Position numbers and translations under genes: made by a program. Under the pieces are notes generated by a model. It saw only the letters and a list, made by a program, of their open reading frames with translations, was not told the origin of the DNA and did no database searches. Below are positions 387 through 32,161 of a DNA stretch of 64,000 nt, in pieces; positions within the stretch are counted from its first letter, which is position 1, and every line of letters begins with the position of its first letter. This DNA is from Chrysophaeum taylorii (Eukaryota; Sar; Pelagophyceae; Pelagomonadales; Pelagomonadaceae): assembly GCA_029834535.1 (NCBI GenBank), contig JAQMWT010000546.1:233677-297676 (forward strand), in the 5' to 3' direction.

Positions 387-607
387 ACGCAGTGGGACGG
401 GGTATGGCCGGGGGGCGAAGACGGAAGGTTATCGACGAGTTGGTTCTCAGTCACATCGCGGTCTCCTCGTCGCATGGCGACAAGCTTGATGGTCACTCTC
501 CGGCGACCGACCTTTCGGCGCTCCTCGTCTACAGGCCCGTGATTCCGGACTGGCTCCTGTCGGTCCGGCCTGGCTCCCATGCTCGGGAGAGGTCTGAAGT
601 TAGTTAG
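387..607 (+). mobile_element. SINE-like element copy 1 (5'-truncated)
   Basis: A 221-bp insertion in the copia RT/RNase H. It is flanked by the same 13 bases, TTACTTGTTCTTT, at 374-386 and 608-620; the first three may belong to the tail, so the target duplication is 10-13 bp. It ends in a short TTAG tandem tail. It lacks about the first 65 bp found in copies 2 and 3. Variable-length duplications, a 5' truncation and a short-repeat tail are hallmarks of LINE-driven retroposition. Confidence 0.85.
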
Positions 608-2400
608 TTACTTGTTCTTTAGTGTAATCCAACATGGTTGCCATATCAGTACGATTGCCGATGAGAAGTCTAAGGTGGTCCATTAGAGTGGAAGAGCGAG
701 AGTAGTACCATAGTCGAAGATTGCGATTTTCGGGCTTGCGCAAATAGCGGAGAGTTCCTGTTAATACTTGAACATGCAGAAATAGTGGATTATGCATTCC
801 TCGGGAACAACGACTAAGGCTTTGTGATAAATCAGGGCGACAGGCCAACTGTACAAAAGTGAGCTTGCCAAGTAAGGTTGAGAAGGTGTGTAGGATGAAC
901 TTGTCCATATCAGAAGATGGCTCTCCAGTTTTATAAGTGGTTGATGGTGACATCGGTGTAGAGGTAGGACGTAACTGCATTAGAATGGGGTACTCTTCAA
1001 ACAATGCATCAATTTTAGCTTGACAGTCAAGTGAGATGGAACCATCGGTAGTACGCGTTATGCGCATACCTAAGAGAGTATGAACTTCTTCAAAGGTTTC
1101 GACTGAATATCCCTTTTTCATGGCTTGCTGGAATTCACGACGTAGCGTTTCCGAGGTGCAAGTGATAACAACATCATCCACTGAGAGCGTGCAAAGAAAA
1201 TACGTAGCGTCAGCTTGGACTTTAGCATAGATGCATGTATCTATTCGAAAGCGTGTATAGCCTAATGAGTCAAAGAAACCATTTATGGTTTGATTCCAAA
1301 GGGCAGGACTCTGTCGTAATCCATAAAGAGATTTAAGTAGTTTTGGGAGACGTCGTCCTTTATATTTTGTATCTTCAGGATCGAGTAGGTAAATACCTTG
1401 TGGCAGTTTAACATGGACATGAGAATCTATGGGAGCTTGAACAAAAGCGTTAAGAACGTCTACGTGGTAGACGGGAAGTCGTAGGTGAGCTGCTAGCGCC
1501 AGAACACAACGGATGCCAGTAAACTGCGCCATAGGACTGAGTGTGTTGAAAAAGTCAGTGCCCAGAGAAGCTAAGAATCCTCGTAGGACCAATCGTGCTT
1601 TATGCTTGATGTACTGACCGGCAGCACTGGTTTTTATACGTAATACAAGGCGGGTATCAATAGGCTTTGAGTTGACCATGGGCAACGCGAGTTTAAAGCA
1701 GCCGAACTCAACAAAATCAAAAATCTCCTTGGAAATAGCGGAGATATAAGCTTTACGATCAACGTCTGAGAGACCTTTGAGGCAGGTCAACTCATATTCA
1801 TCAATCTTGATATCGTTGGCTTGAATTTTATATTCGTTCGGACCAACAGTGCTGGGATCTTGAGCATTGGTAAGATGGGTGATTGCGTAAGAAGCGACCT
1901 TATCGTTAGTGTGAGCGTAAGCTGGATCTTCGACAAGTGAACGACTAGTAGAGGGTCATCTCCAAAGTGGGCCTCAATGTAATGAGATTGCACGGTGATG
2001 GAGTCTTCGATGGCGGAAAGGTGAGGCTCGGAAGCACCATGAGAAGCATCATTATGATCCAAAATGGAATGAGGGGTGAGCAAAGCATAAGCATATTGAG
2101 CGGGAGGAACTCGAAAAGCTTGAGAGTGTTCAGAAATAAGATGAACGAGAGCACGAGGAAGGTGAAAGTCTGCAAGGCTGAAGTCGTCGAAGATATGAAC
2201 AGGAGTGGCATCCGTCGATGGATGGCTAAGGCTCCTATGACACATAGCGGAAGACGATAGGGAAAGCGCTTGGTGAACATGATGATGAAGGGATGGTGTA
2301 AATTCCCCCTCTGGAGGTATAGCCGTCCAGGGGATGCCATGAGCAACATGAAGGGAGTGGAGGGTGGGGTCGCAGAAAGTGATATACACCAGCTTGTTTG
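600..2400 (-). pseudogene. Copia linker and reverse transcriptase
   Basis: A linker segment in a shifted frame (about 2400-1945) leads into the RT frame (about 1860-600). RT motifs include the conserved start region (KARLVLRGF), LNAFVQAPID, KSLYGLRQSPALWNQ and the catalytic box reading LSVDDVVIT, the copia YVDD-type site. The frame is otherwise open for 396 codons from 1790. It is cut at 607/608 by a SINE-like insertion, and the RNase H domain continues on the far side at 373-1. Frame changes near 2350 and 1900 show that Pol is no longer continuous. Confidence 0.92.
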
Positions 2401-3584
2401 TAAGCGGCAACAGTTGGCGATGCAATACGAGTAAGAACAGCCTTGAGATTAGTCTTGCGACGAGGTTGAGGGTGATGAGGACCACGGGTGAGACGAAGGA
2501 CATCCTGGGAATAGAGAGACCGATAAGACGGTAAAAGGGGTAAAGTGTGGGAAGACACTTCAGATGTTGGAGGTGTGGTGACAGAAGCAGCGGGTGCAGA
2601 AGCAGCTGGAGCACATGCGGGAACGGGAGTAGGAGCATGGGCAAGAGAAGAAGGAGTCCACCTCTCGTGTTTAATGTCGGTGGACATAGTATTCCCCCTC
2701 TGCGCCGCATCATTGGGGGTGCTGTGAACAGAGAAGGGGATGTCGGGTGAAGGTGCGGGTGGGGGATGTTGTTCATAGTCGGGAGGTGATTTGGAAATAA
2801 GATGAGGAAAGGTAAGTTTAGAAGAAACACGGACTTGGCCGTTCTCAGGATTAAGGACAACATCAGCTAAATGGTTGACATGGGGTGTTATTAACGGGTT
2901 TATAACATTAGCACCACATAAGCAGATGTAAGGACGACATCGAGGTTCATATTTATGAAATTCAGTGGGTTCCAAATGCAGGTAACACACAGAATCAAAA
3001 GGTTTGAGGTAATCTTGTTGGGGGACATTACATTGATCCAACAAATCTTGTTGGGGGCTTAAGACTCTATTGTAAATACGTTCGAGGGAAACGTTAGGAA
3101 GGAGATTATACGATTGGACAGCATGTATAACAGCCCACGGGTAGTGTGGTGCCGGATCTGTTAGGGGTTGAAATTTATAGGATACATTAAGTATATGCCG
3201 GAGGCGTGTAGACGCGGCAGTTGCTATATGACCAACAGCGGCTGCTACTTCAGGATTAAAAACATGTAAGTAAGGGGGGAACGCAGACATATTAATACCG
3301 TGTTCAACACGAAAGGGAGTTGTAACATGTTGAGATAAGTTGGGTTAAAAAGAATCACAATAAATTTGTTTTAATTGTACAAAAGTGGAGCAAAAGTTGC
3401 GAACAAAATCGAGGGCATTACAAAATTCGCTAGAGTTGGTGGTACGACAAAAGTACACTAACAAAAATTTAGAAATGAGACACTTAAAGACGATGATAAG
3501 GCGAAAGGATCCCCATTCCGAGAGGACAGATACGTAACCACCATCACATGCCCAGGCTTCACCAGGTTGAAAAACTTTTTCGAA
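2235..3584 (-). pseudogene. Copia integrase core and Pro/Ser-rich linker
   Basis: This continues the methyltransferase frame after a TAA at 3585-3587. The sequence PGEAWACDGG supplies the first catalytic Asp (codon 3543-3545), YCDS near 3353 a second Asp, and FNPEVAAAVGH near 3250 the Glu, which matches the D-D-E layout of an integrase. A further TAA at 3345-3347 breaks it. Downstream, a segment with PFDSVCYLHL and RPYICLCGA matches the copia integrase C-terminal 'FGC.AYVH' and 'FLGY' region. It then runs into a low-complexity Pro/Ser/Ala-rich linker to about 2235, typical of copia Pol between integrase and RT. Confidence 0.85.
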
Positions 3585-5876
3585 TTATGGTTGCTTGGTA
3601 AGATGATGTGGATGAGGAAAGCGTTTTTTATGTAAGGTGCAATCCACACAGAACTTACGGTAGGGCACATCTGAAGGATGATGTCCCGGACTGGCAATGA
3701 CCTGAACAGCTCTTGTAGCTTGGGAATCACTAGAATGATGTATATTGTAAAAATTGGTAGCACGTCGCTGAGCATCTCGAAACGCGAGGGTGCCTCTGGC
3801 ATGAACTTTTCTGTCGAAGGGCGCATGTTTCTCATGTAACTGTCTTGGAGTTATGAGAGGAATATGTTTGGTTTTTGTAGGAGATGATGTATCTGCGGAT
3901 GGAGTGTTAGAGAGGAAGACGTGAGCCACTGAATCAAGATGAAATAGTGGAAGTTCGTGGTTAGAAGCGAGATTATCACAACATTGAAAGATTTTATTAG
4001 AGATGTATAACATTGTAATGGAACTCTGGTGTAATATTAAGGATGTGTCAGTAGGAAAGATGTTTGTGAAAAAGGTTGGCCTGTAGTTTTTGGTTAGAGA
4101 GGCGTGATCAGGGTCAAAAGATGGTGATAACGTTAATTTACGCAAGTCATAGACAATCTGACACAAATGTGTATAAATTACATGATAGGTTCCAGCCGGA
4201 ATAGCATTAGCGATTATGGCACAGCATAGATCCGGGGACAAAGACAGAAGAAAATTAATTTGGTACGCTGTGAAATTATTGGCGCGTGCCAATTCGCGAG
4301 TTGAGTAATGTCGAATGCGATCGAGCCGTGGATCGTAAAGGATGATGTTAGTAAACCCACGAATAGTAGGTGTTGGGGTGTATATAGAGTGAACTTTGGC
4401 GCCCATTTTCCTATCGCTGGATGTGATGAAGCCAAGGTATCTGCTTTGAGACAGATGCATGTCACTTAAAGCAAAACTTTTATCGATGAACTCGAGACGA
4501 TTTTCCTGAGGGTAAAAAATGAAAGAATCGTGAAGCACAGGTGAAGTGTAGGAAACCAATGTTTGTACTAGACGACGCGTGTCTTGATTTTCATTATGAT
4601 GGTGATAAGCTTGGCATAACCAAAGAAAACCGGCAACAGGAGTAAGAGAAGCAGTCTTATCGATTCCTGTATCATGTGTTTGGAAGATGTAGGTTTCGCC
4701 AAATGCATTTATGTGTGCCTGGTATTTAGAAGAAGAGTTAGAAACTATGATGTCTCCACCTGTGTGTCTTCTACCAGTGATGTAAATGATGGAGGCAGTA
4801 GACGATTTATTTAAGAATAACCTGTGAGATGGTTGGTTAGATTCGATAGTTGTAATACGAAAGGACACAGGTAATGTGGTAGAGTTTGGGAACAAGCGTC
4901 CCATAATATTATAGAGGAGCACGAAAGCCTTGAGTTCAATAGGAGAGCTCATACAAGAGAGGGGCTTTCTTGAATTCGTTAAGAATCCTAAGCGAAAGTT
5001 AGAATTGCCCTCCATTTCATCTTGACTTGGATGTTCGACTGTTTTGTTTGAGTGCAGACGAAGAAACAACATGGTTAAAGTTTCGAGCTTAGTAACTGCT
5101 AGGCGAACGGATCCTGTGCGACTGAAATTGCTGTAAGTTTTGGGTATGGACACAAATGGCATATCAGAGAAAACCTGCGTCCAAGTTTCGTCGATAATTA
5201 ACTTGCGACTGATGGAGTTGGCGTGATCTGCAATGTCCAGGAAGGAAGTGACTCGTTTATTAGGCCAGGAGAGCAAATCTAGAGGACCGGTATTATATTT
5301 ACGAGCGACAAGGATCCATCTTTCTCTGGCTTGATAATCTCCACACAAGTAACGTGGAAATCGATCACATATATCCACTGTATAGTTCATCGTAGAGAAT
5401 ATAAGATTAGCAACTCGTATATGATCTTCATACGATGCAGAGTGTGGTGGCGTCATCTCCATAAAAAGAATGAGGGGCTTTAAAAGCTCAAGGACACTTA
5501 GAGCACTTGGAAACAAGGAGTTGTCCATATCGCGCTCGAAAGTTAAAATGGATCTCCCGTTGATTATGTTGCGATTGGTGCATGGAGATGTCAATTCCAC
5601 TATATCAGTATAATATCTTGCACGTTCAGTGTCCGATGCTCGATATAGATATGTAAGGAACTTGGATAGTGACGGGAAAACTTCGATGGAATTACCAAAG
5701 CGTCTTTGTAGCATATGCGTAAGATTTTCGTCGCTCTCAACAAGAACTTTAACGTTGATGTTGATTTGCAAGTCATTGGAAGCACAAGCCAAGAAGGCAG
5801 GAGTGGACATCCCGGAGCAAAGTAGAGTTACAGTAGGTGCTCGTGAACTTGGAGATGTTGTTACCGTATGGAGCAA
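3585..5876 (-). CDS. Retrotransposon-borne C5-cytosine DNA methyltransferase plus integrase zinc motif
   Basis: A 763-residue open frame, the longest in the element. I see the C5-MTase motifs in canonical order: motif I at residues 18-28 (LLCSGMSTPAF), an acidic motif II (VESD, 46-49), motif IV with the catalytic Pro-Cys (TSPC, Cys99), a motif VI equivalent (FMEMTPP, about 138-144), motif VIII (QARERWILVA, 182-191), then a target-recognition-sized stretch of about 300 residues. Motif IX follows around 522-532 (RHYSTRELARA) and motif X around 554-562 (IIANAIPAG). The last 90 residues are the integrase N-terminal zinc region, with CVDC at 743-746. Cys99, the Glu of motif VI and the Arg residues of motif VIII are present, so the domain may once have been, or may still be, catalytic. 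It would modify cytosine in DNA. It sits between protease and integrase in the same frame as both, with a TGA 18 bp upstream of its first Met and a TAA at its end. Confidence 0.85.
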   Translation of the reverse strand: MLHTVTTSPSSRAPTVTLLCSGMSTPAFLACASNDLQININVKVLVESDENLTHMLQRRFGNSIEVFPSLSKFLTYLYRASDTERARYYTDIVELTSPCTNRNIINGRSILTFERDMDNSLFPSALSVLELLKPLILFMEMTPPHSASYEDHIRVANLIFSTMNYTVDICDRFPRYLCGDYQARERWILVARKYNTGPLDLLSWPNKRVTSFLDIADHANSISRKLIIDETWTQVFSDMPFVSIPKTYSNFSRTGSVRLAVTKLETLTMLFLRLHSNKTVEHPSQDEMEGNSNFRLGFLTNSRKPLSCMSSPIELKAFVLLYNIMGRLFPNSTTLPVSFRITTIESNQPSHRLFLNKSSTASIIYITGRRHTGGDIIVSNSSSKYQAHINAFGETYIFQTHDTGIDKTASLTPVAGFLWLCQAYHHHNENQDTRRLVQTLVSYTSPVLHDSFIFYPQENRLEFIDKSFALSDMHLSQSRYLGFITSSDRKMGAKVHSIYTPTPTIRGFTNIILYDPRLDRIRHYSTRELARANNFTAYQINFLLSLSPDLCCAIIANAIPAGTYHVIYTHLCQIVYDLRKLTLSPSFDPDHASLTKNYRPTFFTNIFPTDTSLILHQSSITMLYISNKIFQCCDNLASNHELPLFHLDSVAHVFLSNTPSADTSSPTKTKHIPLITPRQLHEKHAPFDRKVHARGTLAFRDAQRRATNFYNIHHSSDSQATRAVQVIASPGHHPSDVPYRKFCVDCTLHKKRFPHPHHLTKQP

Positions 5877-5894: not shown

Positions 5895-6864
5895 TCATAC
5901 AGGAGGTGAGAAAGGCTTGCGTACGTAAGGCAACTGCGAATGTATTGACGCCAGGATGGTTTTGAGCCATGGGACGTAAATTACACGTTCCAGAAGGTTG
6001 GAGTATAGCTTAAGCATTTCGCGTTGTTCGTTAAAAGCACTTAGTCTGAACTGTAAGGAGCGAAGTTCCATTTTCCGAGCTTTAGCTTGTTGTAGTGAAT
6101 GAATTGGGAGAGTAGGTAATAAGTTGTTTAATCTAAACAAAGTAAGCTTGACATTGTCGTCAATTTTACTCTGGATAGATGATTGTCCTTTAAACTCAAC
6201 CCCGTAAAGGTGTATACCAAGTTTGTCTTCTCCCCATTGAGTCACGCTGATGATGTGCAGATCAGGATCATTATGCTCGTTTTTGCTTGGGTAGGAAAAG
6301 CGCAACATCAAGCTTTACGTATCCCACGTTAGGATGCTTTGGGAGAGCGGGGATGACGGTTCTTATTATCATGGCATGAGTGATACTTTGAGTATCAGTA
6401 GCCGTCTGGATAGCGGGTGACACGGACTCGAGTAGTTTAACGATATGTATTGGATCGGCGTAACGTTTAAAGTTAATTACATGTTGAGAGGCACATGTAT
6501 CAGCATACCCCGGCGTAGTCATTAAAGGTAAATTGTACTCATTGTACAATTTAAGCATTGTTGCGTAACAGGCATGTGTAGAGCTTTGACCAAACACATA
6601 CTGTGTCATGAAACTTTGCGTTTGTTCGGAAGGTACCACGACAAGTGTAAATCCATTGTTTAATTTCGGTAGCAACACAGAGGGATCTGTACCATCCTCA
6701 TTTTCTTCGTTAGGTTGGTTATTTGGGAGCTCGGAGTGCGAAGAAGTTTCCCGAGCTTGACGACGAACGATGGCATTCTGGGCTTTAGCATTTATGTGCT
6801 GCAGTAGCGGTAGAGGAATGTTATCGATTTCATCATCTTTGATAGATAGAAAAGCATGAAACAT
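5895..6864 (-). pseudogene. Copia aspartic protease region
   Basis: Two overlapping segments in different frames (6864-6271 and 6311-5895) together give a retroviral-type protease. The active-site motif reads ADTCASQHVI, which corresponds to the copia D-S/T-G-A-S-x-H-[MI] motif with Cys in place of Gly. Downstream the segment DLHIISVTQWGEDKLGIHL matches the conserved copia 'LISVSQL..DGLGI' ending of the protease. The frame change near 6300 and a TGA at 5895-5897 separate it from the methyltransferase frame, although that frame is the same as the second protease segment. The Gly-to-Cys change and the broken frame suggest it is inactive. Confidence 0.8.
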
Positions 6865-7362: not shown

Positions 7363-7648
7363 CCTCCCGGCGTAGGTTGGCACCTATTCGCCTCCCGGGC
7401 GGGCCGGTTGGCAGCCGGAACGTTCGCAGTGGGACGGGGTATGGTCGGGGGGCGAAGACGGAAGGTTATCGACGAGTTGGTTGTCAGTCACATCGCGGTC
7501 TCCTCGTCGCATGGCGACAAGCTTGATGGTCACTCTCCGCCGACCGACCTTTCGGCACTCCTCGTCTACAGGCCCGTGATTCCGGACTGGCTCCTGTCGG
7601 TTCGGCCTGGCTCCCATGCTCGGGAGAGGTCTGAAGTTAGTTAGTTAG
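7363..7648 (+). mobile_element. SINE-like element copy 2 (full length)
   Basis: A roughly 286-bp insertion in copia Gag, flanked by an 11-bp duplication TTATCTTTTGC at 7352-7362 and 7649-7659. The 5' end begins CCTCCCGGCGTAGGTTGG, the same as copy 3, and the 3' end is a TTAG repeat. A stretch near the 5' end (TAGGTTGGCACC) and one about 50 bp further (GGAACGTTCGCAGT) loosely resemble pol III A and B boxes; this is suggestive only. No long ORF is convincing. Confidence 0.87.
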
Positions 7649-8471
7649 TTATCTTTTGCACTACGAAGTTTACGAGCATTAAAACCAGACTGTCCAGCGA
7701 CAGTAGCTAACAATGAGTAAGCATTGTTTAGAGAATCATGAGATTGATGAATAGTATCCATCAATAATACCTTAGGTGGCTTGGTAGCGGTAGTACCAGG
7801 GATATATGGAATCCATGATGCTGGTTTATCCAAGCGTCGGTTAGATGAAAACTTTGTCTCATTATATATCTTTAACAAGAACTCCAATAACGGACGAACA
7901 TCATTGGGATCAACTAGCTTTAAAACTTCAGGATCGTGAGTCGAGTTGTTCCCCGAGCGTGTCTCGTAAAGTTTGCACCATTCTAGTAAAGACTGAGAAT
8001 AGCGTTCGTGATCAGAGGGATTAGCATATGGACGACGGATCTCCTCGTGAGCTTTAAGTGCGATTATGGAATCATTAAATTGAATTGATGCTTCGTCATG
8101 GTTTAATTGATTTGCCTGAGTTTGGAATGCAAGGAGTTGTTCGACAAATACATGAGCACACCAATCAACATTTAAGGACATTCGATTAAACTGAGATTTA
8201 AGTTCAGTGACATCTGTACAAGATACTGTTTCGTAGTAGTGGTAAGCTAAACGCGTTGCTGCACGTAATTTATTAGGATGTGCAGTAAAGGAATAAATTT
8301 TCTTCAACTGTGGCCACATGGCGAGGGCAGGGCGTTCATGAGATTCTAGGTTGAAGAACGTGTACAGGAAACCGGCGTAAGTTTCGCAATGTTTAATCCA
8401 ATCGGCATTAGAGAGACCTGAGAAGGATATGTTGGTTAGAGATGAATCATACACAATTGATTTTGGAAATC

Positions 8472-8596
8472 AACGCCTTTTCATCCCTCGCCTCTACCCC
8501 AACTGTGTGATTTTGCTCTGTGATCCTGGACCGGCTCCTGCCGGCCCAGCCTGGCTCCCATGCCCGGGAGAGGTCCGAAGTTAGTTAGTTTAGTTA
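8472..8596 (+). mobile_element. Divergent SINE-like copy 5 sharing only the 3' end
   Basis: A 125-bp insertion in copia Gag with a 13-bp duplication GATTTTGGAAATC at 8459-8471 and 8597-8609. Its last 75 bp or so match the 3' part of the other copies, including the TTAG-type tail, but its first 50 bp do not. This fits a second SINE family using the same 3' end, or a chimaeric copy. Confidence 0.75.
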
Positions 8597-9073
8597 GATT
8601 TTGGAAATCGGGTATCTAATAAAGTGAGGACACGCTTAACATCCTCATTTTATTCGGGTCGAACAAGATTATATGACTCTTGATAGAAAAGTCGCTCGAG
8701 ATCATTACGTGCATCAACTGATAGTTGATGGGTAGAGTTGACGTGCCAAGTCTTGAGATGAGCAGGCAAGGCATCTTCATTAGGTAACTGTAATTCATTA
8801 ATCTTTTCAGCTTTCCATTGAGCGAAAATGATATCAACTTCGTGTTCGAGAAGTTGGTCATATTCTGGGGCATTTCGTGTATATGAGTCATAGGAGTCGT
8901 ATATAGAACAACGCATCCACATGTGGGCTTGTCATATGCCTGCGAAGCATCTCAATTTGCAAACTCACCTTGGTCGAATTGTCTTGGAAGCGCAATCCAC
9001 CGTTGAGTTTATCAACGAGGATTTGTTCCTGCTTATAAATATCCGTGGTGGATATTGGTCTTGGTTTCGACAT

Positions 9074-9880
9074 AGTCGTGACCTATTGAAAATAGGTTAT
9101 AGGAGTGATAAAACAAATTGACATGTTCGAATGAAGGGTTTCTAACATGCGGAGGAATATGTACAGTTAGCTATTTTAAGCGTGAGCTTATATACAAGAC
9201 CAAACAAATCACCGTGCCATTTGAGCATGATGCTTTGAGACTGAAGAATGGATTAGTTCTCGAGCATTCAGTCTTTTGTTGGGAATGAGAGGAAAAACCC
9301 GTACAAGTTTCCGCGGCTTGTGTAGGAAAAATTTTAATTTTATTGGCTATGCGAGTGCATAAGACCAGTGGCCGACCCAACTCGGTCACAAACCAAATTA
9401 ACTGGTGGTCAAATACCGTCACACAACAAATATGTACAGTAGACCACCGCCAAACACATTGTCGCATTGTACTCGTAATCAGGCGTAAACTGATCACTCC
9501 ATTATACGCACAACACAGTTGGGCTGACACACCTACGCATCTGGGCCCATAACCTGGAGAGATTTGACCCTCTCCGAGTACATGGTAGAGACTGTGCGCA
9601 GTCTTAGGCGTGTACAGACCATTCCGCTTGTCACATGCTACTACACAAGGTAGGGATTTAGGCCCTAACTCCTTAAGGACATTAAGTCCCGTAGAAGCGT
9701 TTACACTGACAACGAGGAACGGAGCCTCTGTCAATTAAACAGAAAACCCCGTACACGACGGTACTCACCTGGAGGCCTACCCCATGTTGGTAGAAAGCTT
9801 GAGGCGATTCTCATTGTCATGAAATATGTAATTGCGGAAGGGTAAGGAAGGGAAGAGGGACAGCCGAATTACGGAGAGAA
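9074..9880. other. Interelement stretch, possible copia 5' LTR and leader
   Basis: No convincing gene. It lies between the copia Gag start and the gypsy remnant, where the minus-strand copia element should have its leader and 5' LTR. The matching 3' LTR is outside the window, so an LTR cannot be tested by comparing ends. The minus-strand frame at 9734-9171 is open for 187 codons but shows no recognisable domain. Confidence 0.35.
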
Positions 9881-10089
9881 AACCCTCAAGTAGGAAAAGG
9901 TGTGAGAGGAGTAAAAAGTTCCCGTGTCGTACACGTTATAGTGTAGCGCTCTGGAGTAAGATGGATATCGACTGATGATCTCCAAGATCGCACCAAATGG
10001 AAACCTCCAGAGGTGCCGTTGATTCGGCCTGCAACAGATGAGCCGGGACGTCTCACGCTTCTTCTGCTGTCCCCCCCCGACAACCAAAT

Positions 10090-11560
10090 TTGGACGTTCC
10101 GCCAGATCCTGAGCGAGATCGGGAACCGAAGATTAAGAACGAGCTGAGTGTTCGTGTCAAAGGCGAGAGGATCAACGAAAGCCACCCGGAAGTGAGACTA
10201 AAATACGAGAAAAAGTTTGATGTGCCATGGAAAGATGCTCCGCGCGATGCTGAGGGGGCACCGCTGCCGCACACTCCTGAGCATGTCAAGGATAACGAAG
10301 CAATGAAAGTGAAAATTCCTATGAAAGAAGAAGTTGGCAAGGTTGTTCAGGAACTTGGAATTCCTGACAATCCGCACTTAGATGACGATGCAAAACTGAT
10401 GCCCGTCACTGTGTGCAATACTCTTGGGCTTTTTTTCGACCCGATTATGAGACCTGTGGACTCGCCTCCTGTGTCTCTACGATTCAAAGACGCGAATCCG
10501 CGACCGATTAAGATGACGCCCTACCGACTGACACCTGCGAAGGTCGATTGTCTCCGCAAGCAGATCAGCGAGTGGTGCCGGGATGGAGTGATTCGTCTGG
10601 CCGACTCACCTTGGGGCTTTCCTGTATTGATGCTTCCCAAGAAAGGAGCTGAGATTGGAACGTCAAACGCGTTCCGTGCCGCAGTTGACTTACGTCAGCT
10701 CAACGATCAATTGGTCAACGACAGTCGGCCGAACATTCGACAAGGTGATGCTTTAGCTTTTCTCGCCATGCGACGATGGCGGACATGCATTGATATTAGA
10801 TGGGGATACCACAACCTTCGTCTAGATCCGGCAGCGCAAGACGCTGTCATGATGGTTAGCCCACTTGGCGCTCATAGTGTCTTGAGATTACCTCTAGGTG
10901 TGAAGACGGCCGGAGCTCTTTTCTGCAAGCAAATGGCGAGCGACCTTTCGAAATGGATGTATCGAGACTTGGTTGCGTTTGTTGACGATATTATGATGGG
11001 ATCTGACGATCTTCATCGACATTTACAGTTTTGATCGAAATTATGTGTCATTTGGCACAGAGAGGGTACAGCGGTCGAACTGCGAAGTTCCACCTTCTCA
11101 AAGATGATATAGAATTTCTGGGGCACATTTCGACCCCAGAAGGCTTGAAGCCGAATCCGAAGACGCTGGAAGCACTGCAGAAGATGCCGATTCCAGGTAC
11201 TTTACCAAATACGTCCCCGAAGACTCAGATACGCTCTTTCATCGGCATGAGTAATTACTGCCGGCGATATGTGAAGGGCTACTTGAAGATAGTGGAACCG
11301 TTGAGACGATTATGCCTCGAAGGCGTAAAGTTAGAATGGACGCCCGAGTTGTCAAAAGGCTTGGGATACGACTATTGAAGCTTTGGTTGGTTCCCGAGGA
11401 GTCTACCACCCCGATTATGATCTGCCTTTTAAGATCCGTTCCGACGCTTCCAAGGATGGACTTGGAGCATATCTCTTCCAGATTGTCGAAGTTAAAGACG
11501 ATGCCGGAAGAGTAACTCGAGAAGAACGAGTAATTGAATACTGGAGTTGCTGGCAGATAT
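10090..11560 (+). pseudogene. Gypsy reverse transcriptase and start of RNase H
   Basis: The RT shows KMTPYRLTP, WGFPVLMLPKK, AAVDLRQLND, TCIDIRWGYHNLRL, LPLGVKTAGALFCKQM and the catalytic FVDDIMM (a YVDD variant). After a frameshift near 11,025 the thumb region continues with FHLLKDDIEFLGHIST and the conserved IRSFIGMSNYCRRY. After another shift near 11,375 the RNase H begins with FKIRSDASKDGLGAYL. The start at 10,090 is the first Met of the frame, but the polypeptide probably began further upstream. Confidence 0.9.
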
Positions 11561-13805
11561 CCTTTCTCTAGAGTACTTTCGAGCCTACATCGAAGGGCAC
11601 CGGACTGTATTGGAGACCGATCACCGAAACTTGACGTTTTTACGCAAGGCGACGCACTCGTCTGGGCAGCTTGCTCGTTGGGCGATGCGCCTCGCTAATT
11701 TTGACCCTGAATTTGGTTACAAGCCGGGAAAGTCACCGGGAGTGAGTATCCCTGACTGTCTCTCCCGCAATCCGATAGATCATGTCATCGAAACTGACGA
11801 GTTTGGAGAACCTTCGAACCACGCTTATTTGGTGTTCCAAGAGCTTCCCCGACCCGTTGATGACCGAGGAATTCCCGCCTCCGGCTGCCACTTCACAATG
11901 TCGTTCGTTACGACCGACCTGCCGGAGGACGAGGAAGAAGATCCTGAAAAGGATCCGACGAGAGTGGCTACGTCTCACGCTACGAGACAACGTCAGAAGA
12001 ACCGTGCGCGCGATGAGCCACAGGTCTTCAGGGACGCAGCCGCTTATAAGGATTATATCGATAAGATACCCGGCAAAATGACGCTCGCCTAGATCGCCCG
12101 TGAGGAAGAATCTGATGCTACTTGCGAGGATATTCGTCACCGAATGGCCCAAGTTCAGACGCCGCGACGTTCCCGAGCGAACGAACGATATGATGTTGTT
12201 AAAGACATTCTTTACCGCATTTCTGCTGATTTGCACCCGATGATTGTGGCCCCTGCTACGTTGCGCAAGCGCATTATTCGACTATACCATGACACTCCGG
12301 TTAACGGTGGTCATATGGGACGTCACAGTACTGTCCATGCTATCCAAGAACGATTTTGGTGGCCCCACATGTCAAACGAAGTCGGAGTCTTCATTACCGA
12401 GTGTTTAGTTTGCCAGAAGGCTCGTACACCTGAGCCGAAACGAGCTGGACTCTTGCAACAGCCTGTGTACGATGGTGATGGTGCTGTTCTATGCATGGAT
12501 TTAGTTGGACCCTTGTCCAGCGCTGGTCCTGAGACGTATCTTTTAGTATTTTTTGATGCGTTCTCGCACTTCTTGATATTAGATGTTTTGAACGACAAGG
12601 CTCTTGAATCTATTCTTGAGTCATTTGTCATTAACATCCTCCTCAAGGGCTACTTGCCCCGGATGATTCGTTCCGAGAACGGTAAAGAATTCGTGAACAA
12701 TTTGATGCGCGAGTATTGCCATCTCTTCAACACACGATATCAAACCACGATTCCTTATCATGCCCAGTCGAACCCGGCTGAGCGTGTAAACCGATTTATC
12801 AAGGCCTTCCTCCGTGCTTGCCTTCAGGGCCGGAACATCACAGATTGGCCCGACTTTGCCCATTATATTGCGTTTTGCTACAACCGCAAGTTTATTCCAG
12901 GCACGCAGATTTCTCCCTTTATGCTGCGCCTGAACCGTCAGCCAATGCTGCCAACTAACTACACGCTTATGGACTTTGATACGCGACTGTTACCTAAGAC
13001 TCGCTCTGATGCAGTCGCCGAAACTCGTGAACGATTGAAGTATTATACGAAGATCGTCCGCGAGGTTCGTGATAAAGCTTTAAAGAAGCAACGATTGGCC
13101 CACAACGCCGATCATGTCGATGTTGAATACAAGGAAAGGTCGCATGTTTTGCTTTACATTCCTTTCCTTCAGAACAAGCTTCGACCGGAATGGCGAGGAC
13201 CGTTTATTATCAAGGAACGCCTTTCCCCGGTCACCTATAGGATTGAGTCTCTCGACTCTCCGCCCGAAGAACGACGTGTTCATGTTAGTCAGATCACGCC
13301 TGTGATGGTACCTCCGATCGTTGATCAAACCATCCGCAAACCCGAAGAAACTTTCCGTGATAATTATCAGCACGGTAAGTTTGTTGTTTTCCGGATTCCT
13401 GACCGGAAGCTCTCTGATTGGCGCAAGAAGATTTATGTTGCCGAAGTTTACGAGCCGTACGATTACCAGGATGATCGTGTTGCTCTACATTTCTATTCTG
13501 ATTTGGGTCCGAACGATGATGTCGCTTATTTTAAGCCGACCTCTCATCTTTCGCACCGCAAACTCAAGCCCGAGTTAAAGGATGTTGACGGTCGTAGTTT
13601 CACCGACAAGTCCAAGATCTCATCCAGCACAACACCTTGTGTCACGGATTTCGCTCCGCACGAGACTGATGTGTTGATTCCCAAGTTTACTTACGCAGTG
13701 GTCGGGTTCCCGAACCGATCGTCACCCGCGTTTACAAGAAGATCCGTTCGCGAGATGCTCGTAAGGCGAGGCCGCGCTCCTCGCGCTAGCCGCTCGCTGG
13801 GGTAG
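11547..13805 (+). pseudogene. Gypsy RNase H end and integrase
   Basis: One frame runs from 11,547 to 13,805, broken only by TAG at 12,090-12,092. It starts with the RNase H C-terminus (TVLETDHRNLTFL, then SIPDCLSRNP). The integrase begins about 12,200 with an HHCC zinc motif (LYHDTPVNGGHMGRHST and CLVCQKA). The core has CMDLVGPL (first Asp), IRSENGKEFV (the second acidic residue is Glu where Asp is usual) and NPAERVNRF (Glu). The C-terminal end has RPEWRGPFIIKERL, the usual GPF..... motif, and no chromodomain that I can see. The Asp-to-Glu change in the catalytic triad and the stop suggest an inactive enzyme. Confidence 0.92.
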
Positions 13806-18491: not shown

Positions 18492-18786
18492 CTAACTAAC
18501 TAACTAACTTCAGACCTCTTAGAGCATGGGAGCCAGGCCGGACCGACAGGAGCCAGGCCGGAATCACGGGCCTGTAGACGAGGAGCGCCGAAAGGTCGGT
18601 CGGCTGAGAGTGACCATCAAGCTTGTCGCCATGCGACGAGGAGACCGCGATGTGACTGACAACCAGCTCGTCGATAACCGTCCGTCTTCGCCCCCAGGCC
18701 ATACCCCGTCCCACTGCGAACGTTCCGGCTGCCAACCGGCCCGCCCGGGAGGCGAATAGGTGCCAACCTACGTCGGGAGGGCTGAT
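18492..18786 (-). mobile_element. SINE-like element copy 3 (full length)
   Basis: About 295 bp on the minus strand, inserted just upstream of the helicase remnant. The target duplication TCCTTACCCTGAA is at 18,479-18,491 and 18,787-18,799. The tail (left end on the plus strand) has four or five TTAG units. The 5' end matches copy 2. Confidence 0.88.
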
Positions 18787-18958
18787 TCCTTACCCTGAAT
18801 CGGGGGACAACAGCGGCTCGGCGATGACCCCGCCTAAAAACCGCATACTTATGTCCGCGAGTGGGGGATCGCCAACGCATTAGGCCGGGCTCGCTGTGCC
18901 CTCACCGCCCTCACCCATCTCGTCGCCTCGGGGAGCCCCACCCAGGCCACCCGATCCC

Positions 18959-31121: not shown

Positions 31122-32161
31122 CAGGGCTGCACCTTGACTCGAAATTTTTGTCACATAAAAAAAATCTTGACTTTGACGTCAAGCAGACAGTGGTCAGATC
31201 TGGGTCACGTCAAAATCAACTTTCAGTATGACTGCCCTCATGATGGTCAAGTCAAAGTCAACATCACGAAAACGAGAAAAGCGGCCGGAAGCGGCCGGCA
31301 GAGGCTGGAAACGCCCCACACGCGCAGTTAGCGCCTTCCTCGTCTTCCCTCTCGTCTCTCGCACCTCCCTCCGCCTGCAGAAGCAGAAGAAAACACAACA
31401 GCGCGACAGCTTACTTGTTGGAGGAAAACCCGTCGTCACCGAAATGTAGCCGTCCAAAGTAATGCTGGTCTTCCTCCTCGGCATCGCAGCAGTTCGTAAC
31501 ACGTCGTGCCCCTCGTCGGATCGCGATAGATGTAGCAGTGCGTCTTTTTAATGCTAACTAACTAACTAACTTCAGACCTCTCCCGAGCATGGGAGCCAGG
31601 CCGGACCGAAAGGAGCCAGTCCGGAATCACGGGCCTGTAGACGAGGGGCGCCGAAAGCTGGGTCGGCGGAGAGTGATCATCAAGCTTGTCGCCATGCGGC
31701 GAGGAGACCGCGATGTGACTGACAAACAACTCGTCGATAACCTTCCGTCTGCACCCCCCGGCGATACCCCGCCCCACTACTCTTTTTAATGCAGTCCGTG
31801 TCTTTCTTCGCACGCTCTGGGTGATCCCCTGTCAGGCGCCGAACGTGGCTCCAAACCCCTGAAGGCGCCGCTCTCCTCCCGGCTTTCCCGGGCGTGTTAT
31901 CCCGATACTGCTCTGGTGGAATGTACGGCCTCGCGTCGTATTCCTCCTCCTCCCCCGCCCCGCTGACATCCTCGTCCAACACGAGCTGGTGTGCATGCAC
32001 TGGAGCCGATTCCGTCAACGCCGACGACGTCACGTAAAATCCCGTGACCGTGACCAGCTCGCAAAAAATGGTCATGTCAAGTCACGAAAACGTCAACGTC
32101 AACATTTCACGGTCGTTTGACGTCAACATGTTGACGACCTTGACGTCAAGGTGCAGCCCTA
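31122..32161. mobile_element. Non-autonomous hAT-like element with nested SINE
   Basis: Terminal inverted repeats begin CAGGGCTGCACCTTGAC at 31,122 and TAGGGCTGCACCTTGAC (reverse complement) ending at 32,161. An 8-bp target duplication AACAACTG lies at 31,114-31,121 and 32,162-32,169. A CAGGG-type end with an 8-bp duplication is the hAT signature. No transposase is encoded in its 1040 bp. Subterminal regions are rich in TGACGTCAA and GTCAAGTCA motifs at both ends. The SINE-like copy at 31,555-31,780 is inserted in it. Confidence 0.85.
31555..31780 (-). mobile_element. SINE-like element copy 4 (5'-truncated)
   Basis: About 226 bp on the minus strand with target duplication TCTTTTTAATGC at 31,543-31,554 and 31,781-31,792. 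TTAG tail at its left end on the plus strand. It is truncated at nearly the same 5' point as copy 1 and is nested in the hAT-like element. Confidence 0.88.

Follow-up and report, generated by a model that had tools for sequence, protein, structure and literature searches.

The methyltransferase-like domain and its copia carrier

The window, a stretch of 64,000 nucleotides from contig C546 of the genome of Chrysophaeum taylorii, a marine golden alga of the Pelagophyceae, carries a degenerate copy of a Ty1/copia-type long terminal repeat (LTR) retrotransposon family, here called A2. The element lies on the minus strand and runs from window position 9955 to -2872, the contig having been extended by 4 kb. 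Its list of open reading frames (ORFs) includes a frame of 763 codons at 5876-3585, also on the minus strand; an earlier note on this DNA had reported the frame correctly but left its strand unstated, and the plus strand across 3585-5876 is riddled with stops. Roughly the first 590 of the 763 residues resemble a divergent C5 cytosine methyltransferase (C5-MTase) domain, and integrase and reverse transcriptase come after it. The frame very probably encodes a divergent C5-MTase domain within a copia Pol, with a probability of about 0.85 that covers both the anatomy and the enzyme class. The domain and its motifs are as follows.

4107 to 5837, minus strand: divergent C5-MTase domain spanning residues 14-590 or so; its middle is enlarged and resembles a target recognition domain; limits set by eye
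5793 to 5831, minus strand: motif I, VTLLCSGMSTPAF, aligned with motif I of known C5-MTases
5571 to 5591, minus strand: motif IV, TSPCTNR with Cys99, in the register given by the profile; Cys in 30 of 30 A2 loci
5442 to 5462, minus strand: motif VI, MEMTPPH, with EMT where ENV is canonical
5316 to 5345, minus strand: motif VIII, CGDYQARERW (QxRxR); QxRxR in 27 of 30 A2 loci
4275 to 4298, minus strand: motif IX-like RELARANN, assigned by eye
4191 to 4208, minus strand: motif X-like NAIPAG, assigned by eye; NAIP in 29 of 30 A2 loci

In the numbering of the frame, VTLLCSG occupies residues 16-22, TSPC 96-99, EMT 140-142, QARER 182-186, RELAR 527-531, and NAIP 557-560, followed by the integrase zinc motif CVDC at 743-746. 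Motifs I, IV, VI, VIII, IX, and X and then CVDC therefore stand in the order that the earlier note had given. The 30 fetched A2 loci, of which the window's own is one, all keep the motif IV Cys, and 29 keep PC; the search anchor for motif VIII was not located in the three loci outside the count. In the sister family A1, QxRxR is present in 9 of 10 loci, and the tenth has an internal stop. The E and M of motif VI are invariant across 17 aligned sequences and the related protein P0121, with the N and V of ENV replaced, while motif I retains SG and has ST in place of the following GG. Motifs I and VI in A2, and motifs I and X in A1, rest on these alignments (17 sequences; P0121).

The remainder of the element is organized as follows.

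9555 to 9955, minus strand: 5′ LTR of 401 bp, a direct repeat 83.4% identical to the 3′ LTR
9541 to 9554, minus strand: primer-binding-like site GGTTATGGGCCCAG, just behind the 5′ LTR, recognised from its sequence
7645 to 9073, minus strand: Gag-like region with broken frames, downstream of the primer site, from ORFs
6271 to 6864, minus strand: protease part, with active-site-like GYADTCASQHV at 6478-6510; motif by eye
5895 to 5897, minus strand: in-frame UGA at the boundary between Gag-protease and methyltransferase-integrase-reverse transcriptase, conserved in A1 and A2
2526 to 3650, minus strand: integrase, with the CVDC zinc motif at 3639-3650, core, and SH3-like domain; family matches below curated cut-offs
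600 to 1790, minus strand: reverse transcriptase, RVT_2 (PF07727), 134 bits
1 to 428, continuing to -231 outside the window, minus strand: RNase H part, by eye only
-2475 to -2872 (locus L060, outside the window), minus strand: 3′ LTR, preceded by the purine tract TTGAGGGGG

The order protease, integrase, reverse transcriptase, RNase H, with a reverse transcriptase of RVT_2 type, fits Ty1/copia, the protease and RNase H being assigned by eye. The window ORF at 3290-2235 matches SH3_retrovirus (E=0.00053), and another copy, L043, has a Pol frame that shares 89% identity with window 5894-2526 and matches rve (E=0.0057) and SH3_retrovirus (E=0.00026); each of these matches lies below its curated cut-off. 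No Pfam protease family matched the protease part, and the 269-aa ORF of the Gag region has no Pfam family above noise. Alignment of the LTRs over 394 sites gives 54 differences (Kimura two-parameter distance 0.153), which indicates an old insertion. As found, the repeat reads TCCAGAG...CTCCA, with no TG start seen. The site GGTTATGGGCCCAG is presumably complementary to the anticodon arm of initiator tRNA-Met, a primer of copia type; the host gene for this tRNA is not confirmed, as no tRNA was called in any of the four loci tested from 13 and 9 pattern matches.

An extra 3′ frame lies between RNase H and the 3′ LTR (L060:1666-3683, minus strand; window -317 to -2334). It consists of 413 codons, for which no Pfam family was found, followed by broken pieces. 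Its DNA was scored at 40 places including the window's own, the others being 78-96% identical; the query, window -900 to -231, covers sequence behind RNase H, to the exclusion of RNase H itself. Part of a further A2 copy (L060:1-1128) lies immediately against the 3′ LTR of the window element, in the same orientation. A 233-bp repeat at 388-620 and 7425-7657 was rejected as the LTR because it also occurs at 18495-18789 and 31554-31778 and in the elements L043 and L045, and it is a separate short interspersed repeat. Copies of about 230-290 bp lie in the window at 388-613, 7372-7651, 18495-18789, and 31554-31778, and also within other elements.

Enzyme class and related methyltransferases

The assignment to the C5-MTases is carried by comparison of profiles. 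A six-row profile of the N-terminal part, which includes P0121, matches a mixed C5-MTase profile with a probability of 94.0% and a score of 56.9, whereas the best of 200 column-shuffled decoys scored 22.0 and the profile in reverse 12.7. The mixed profile holds 36 Dnmt2-like rows (every third of 107 sequences sized 300-500 aa), four phage enzymes, and the host DNMT5. It replaced a profile of Dnmt2 only, which was dropped as too narrow. In the alignment of the two profiles, four features fall on their counterparts in known enzymes: motif I, PC in motif IV, E in motif VI, and QxRxR in motif VIII. A profile of A1 and A2 finds one cluster in MMETSP, that of the 392-aa transcript protein P0121 (E=5e-94, 40% identity), which is related to the domain but lacks its later motifs. 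Since P0121 is transcript-derived, a related sequence is transcribed elsewhere. PF00145 is the sole family that P0121 matches among 24736 Pfam families (E=4.4e-4), and it is likewise the sole family matched among the 17 family members, by one of them, not the window's (E=0.014).

Several results weigh against this assignment. The window protein alone matches no Pfam or NCBIfam family, and its only PDB matches are to p53, which were rejected as noise (E about 0.1 and worse). Of 5.8 billion proteins, 7981 candidates were scored, and none proved a relative at E<=0.01. The 17-row family profile found no C5-MTase in the PDB, and the PF00145 score of P0121, 20.2 bits, is below the curated cut-off of 22. 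Against Dnmt2 alone the full-length family profile reaches 7.4% probability and the N-terminal profile 21%, and a Dnmt2-only hidden Markov model (hmmsearch) fails to separate the family from shuffles. The ST of motif I and the EMT of motif VI are non-canonical. Scans of IMG/VR and of 84,980 prokaryote genomes, each seeded by two short peptide patterns, found no relatives.

PF00145 has 124 matches in the genome, none of them at A2 places. A third copia family, B (L044 and L033-L042), carries a better recognisable C5-MTase, with scores to PF00145 of 34 bits, above the cut-off, and up to 46 bits. In L044 a protease motif, the methyltransferase, and integrase-like motifs, assigned by eye, share one frame of 1123 codons. 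All five PDB matches of family B are to M.HhaI (E 0.29-0.52). In the Gypsy-type element L045 (96-5330, plus strand), a methyltransferase-like part stands late in the first frame of 1745 codons and scores 19.2 bits, below the cut-off. This frame precedes one that resembles the RVT_1 frame of the window element's neighbour. That neighbour (window 9974-12972, plus strand) is a copy related to L045, ends before the methyltransferase-like part, and adjoins the A2 LTR. L045, the one inspected, is among about 60 places that all match one short end of PF00145. Two PF00145 places fall outside all element families (G000 C260:30335-31159 and C57:374397-374621).

Among host genes, there is a Dnmt2-like protein (L031) and a DNMT5-type protein (L032), the latter a frame of 2086 codons with 443 bits to 7r76, which we take to be DNMT5 and whose molecule label is DNA repair protein Rad8. 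DNMT5 is the one host enzyme of DNA-maintenance type recognised, other host DNMTs having been sought via PF00145 only. No element was seen around either gene in the fetched loci, which were not searched further. Motif I of the host DNMT5, MCSGTEAP, resembles LLCSGMSTP of A2, but its motif IV has SC where A2 has PC.

In a phylogenetic tree of few taxa and with long branches, families A and B group together with support of 98/94, away from the Dnmt2 rows, and the Gypsy sequences stand apart from both. The comparison with host and element enzymes that the earlier note had called for groups A with B and gives A2 no sister relation to the host DNMT5. The tree contains no Dnmt1, Dnmt3, or Dnmt6 rows, and for this reason and because of the long branches it offers only a hint that copia and Gypsy may have acquired the domain in separate captures, one each.

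Copies, selection, and the conserved in-frame UGA

The genome search covered 70.8 Mb in 697 contigs, and its copy counts for A1 and A2 are lower bounds, the best candidates being scored in each search. Family A2 has at least 64 matches including the window's, the others at 72-93% identity, spread over 56 places or more, of which some are partial; so many matches at such identity mean that the frame is not a product of chance. Family A1 is 44% identical to A2 over the domain and has at least 93 matches in at least 90 places. Pairing was assessed with the best 150 copia reverse transcriptases of 1670 candidates, located at most 6 kb downstream of a methyltransferase. The 43 pairs found (16 A2 and 27 A1) are all on the same strand, with none on opposite strands, and the gaps are mostly near 1.95 kb in A2 and 2.85 kb in A1. 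On contig C42, an A1 methyltransferase and a copia reverse transcriptase, 4.9 kb end to end, share a single open frame of 1691 codons. The strand agreement and the shared frame indicate that the domain is an inherited part of the element and not a nested gene, as the earlier note had held, and many copies at the A1 and A2 places have the same neighbours.

The ratio of nonsynonymous to synonymous substitution (dN/dS) in A2 is 0.073 for residues 1-200, 0.080 for 201-500, and 0.098 for 501-590 (153 pairs, 18 copies). Outside the domain, in the same 18 copies, the linker stands at 0.170 and the integrase part at 0.098. The A2 methyltransferase domain is under purifying selection, about as strict as that on the integrase part measured. 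Two points temper this result: the A2 sample is 18 of the 30 loci, chosen for open frames, and A1 gives a dN/dS of 0.309 (dS 0.064) over eight closely similar copies chosen in the same way. The A1 value is as expected if much of its variation arose after insertion.

Copy L043 (2779-8055, plus strand) reads A1 methyltransferase, UGA, A2 methyltransferase, with two methyltransferases in a row. A tandem arrangement was rejected as the plan of the family, as the upstream methyltransferase is confined to L043 among the 30 A2 loci (L008 being the same place), which identifies L043 as a single A1/A2 recombinant.

A TGA at window 5897-5895 directly precedes the methyltransferase frame and is in the same phase as the protease frame. 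Among the 30 A2 loci, the motif I string was located in 26, and 25 of these read TGA-CGC or TGA-CAC at this point. In A1 it reads TGA-CTA in nine of ten loci, the tenth being the recombinant L046. A C directly follows the TGA in all 34 TGA-bearing A1 and A2 loci, and motif I begins 16 (A1) or 22 (A2) codons behind it, by the string used. The earlier note had described one Pol frame from protease to integrase. The methyltransferase frame is in register with the protease and passes into the integrase, but the conserved TGA between them means that it is not open to the protease.

UGA-CUA is a classic readthrough context. We infer that readthrough of the UGA may yield the second frame, with a separate start as the alternative. 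Predicted RNA folding behind the UGA is unremarkable in three sequences (z -1.45, 0.64, and 1.06). As to a host code in which TGA would be read as a sense codon, TGA is also seen as a scattered disabling stop in the copies.

Possible functions and significance

Cytosine methylation is a standard host weapon against retrotransposons, which makes elements that carry the enzyme a paradox, and few cases have been described. As the earlier note had mentioned, such cases come from algae and dinoflagellates. De Mendoza et al. 2018 (PMC5890265) reported C5-MTases from Symbiodinium and Klebsormidium, carried by LINE, DIRS, and Gypsy elements; both Symbiodinium DIRS enzymes assayed in yeast showed de novo CG methylation. 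The same paper states that Symbiodinium Copia elements are without a DNMT domain. Its KnitGypsy-Dnmt3 of Klebsormidium nitens is likewise a C5-MTase in an LTR Pol frame, present in several copies and under purifying selection (Ka/Ks < 0.2, compared with a dN/dS of 0.07-0.10 for the A2 domain). It is, however, a Gypsy element of a charophyte with an enzyme of the Dnmt3 clade, whereas A2 is a Ty1/copia element of a stramenopile, and the A2 domain sits between protease and integrase directly behind a conserved UGA. SymbioDIRS-Dnmt3 and SymbioLINE-Dnmt, also retroelement-borne C5-MTases with very many copies (PMC5890265), are DIRS and LINE elements, in contrast to the copia (RVT_2) element A2.

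A sentence in a 2025 paper in Mol Biol Evol (PMC12344493) names 'LTR Copia' and cites PMC5890265; since the cited paper reports a Gypsy carrier, the Gypsy case is perhaps intended. In the main text of PMC12344493, the terms pelagophy and Chrysophaeum are absent, and its section 5 gives no anatomy. The C. taylorii assembly, of 71 Mb in 702 contigs from Nanopore and PacBio reads, is described in a paper whose main text is without the words retrotransposon, transposable, and repeat (PMC10366177). No description of a copia carrier of a C5-MTase was found in the open papers searched. A stramenopile copia carrier, with the methyltransferase at the protease/integrase junction behind a conserved UGA, is on that basis new among DNMT-bearing retrotransposons.

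The Pol products of LTR elements are freed by the protease within particles, the site of cDNA synthesis. A leaky UGA would allow a minority of translation to produce a polyprotein of Gag, protease, methyltransferase, integrase, reverse transcriptase, and RNase H, from which the protease would release the methyltransferase inside the particle. Using S-adenosylmethionine and the motif IV Cys, the enzyme would then methylate cytosines of new cDNA before or at integration. New copies would arrive pre-methylated, and the host DNMT5 could maintain the mark. The likely gain would be tolerance, in the form of quiet and less harmful copies, or shielding of the cDNA from host sensing or cutting. Methylation of cDNA as the main activity of the domain is a tentative proposal, to which we give somewhat below even odds. 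In a diatom, loss of DNMT5a raises copia expression (PMC9998398), so methylation does bear on copia elements in related algae.

The copies themselves bear a mixed CpG footprint. Counting against cytosine methylation, synonymous third-position C/T change before G is 0.334 compared with 0.319-0.326 elsewhere (30 A2 loci), and in fourfold codons C/T change at CpG has a ratio of 1.20 (95% 0.82-1.70). In its favour, G/A third-position change after C is 2.26 times that elsewhere in fourfold codons (95% bootstrap 1.11-5.01). The footprint is compatible with some CpG methylation, is far from proof, and could reflect codon preference. Observed/expected CpG is 0.93 in A2, 0.80 in A1, and 0.90-1.48 in 4-kb pieces of the window, and these compositions are too different for a conclusion.

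The domain may instead have lost methylation while remaining related to the C5-MTases, and be retained for another job, for example nucleic-acid binding or particle architecture. The altered motifs I and VI and the low similarity to active enzymes would fit such a loss, but the motif IV Cys persists in every A2 locus and QxRxR in nearly all, the aligned A1 rows and P0121, at 40-44% identity, share the motif residues without change, and of the five parts measured, the one with the motifs shows the lowest dN/dS. Loss of methylation is on balance unlikely.

Some enzymes of the C5-MTase fold work on RNA, and the domain could methylate the RNA of the element or its primer tRNA, as Dnmt2 does tRNA-Asp. 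The mixed CpG footprint and the tRNA-like primer site would agree with such a role. The tree, however, separates A and B from the Dnmt2 rows at 98/94 (few taxa, long branches), and the retrotransposon DNMTs active in yeast methylated DNA (PMC5890265). An RNA substrate is also unlikely.

Action in trans, on the DNA of the host or of rival elements, would shape the host epigenome through counter-silencing or competition. This is doubtful to a similar degree, as LTR Pol products normally meet their own cDNA in particles. The numbers are in its favour: a single genome of 70.8 Mb has A1 or A2 at no fewer than 146 places, besides matches of B and Gypsy type. The widely methylated genome of Symbiodinium is a published parallel (PMC5890265).

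An unrelated element-specific protein with look-alike motifs and no methyltransferase is highly improbable: the single sequence has no convincing match in Pfam, NCBIfam, or the PDB, but the family profile far outscores its best decoy with the motifs in register, PF00145 is the sole family for P0121 and for any of the 17 members, and family B has an above-threshold domain in the same place.

If the domain does methylate cDNA, a broader and distinctly speculative scheme could be drawn, to which we give little credence: the copia and Gypsy methyltransferases would supply the de novo arm and DNMT5 the maintenance arm, retrotransposons would seed the host methylome, and the A and B enzymes would constitute a new, particle-specialised clade of C5-MTases, made in A via UGA readthrough.

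The A2 element adds a superfamily, Ty1/copia, and a third eukaryotic lineage, the stramenopiles, to the DNMT-bearing retrotransposons, and one genome holds four element families of two superfamilies with C5-MTase-like domains. As the domain is too diverged for ordinary annotation, further cases may have been missed. The question of why an element carries a methyltransferase is thereby opened to experiment, in an alga that can be cultured and has a genome of 71 Mb.

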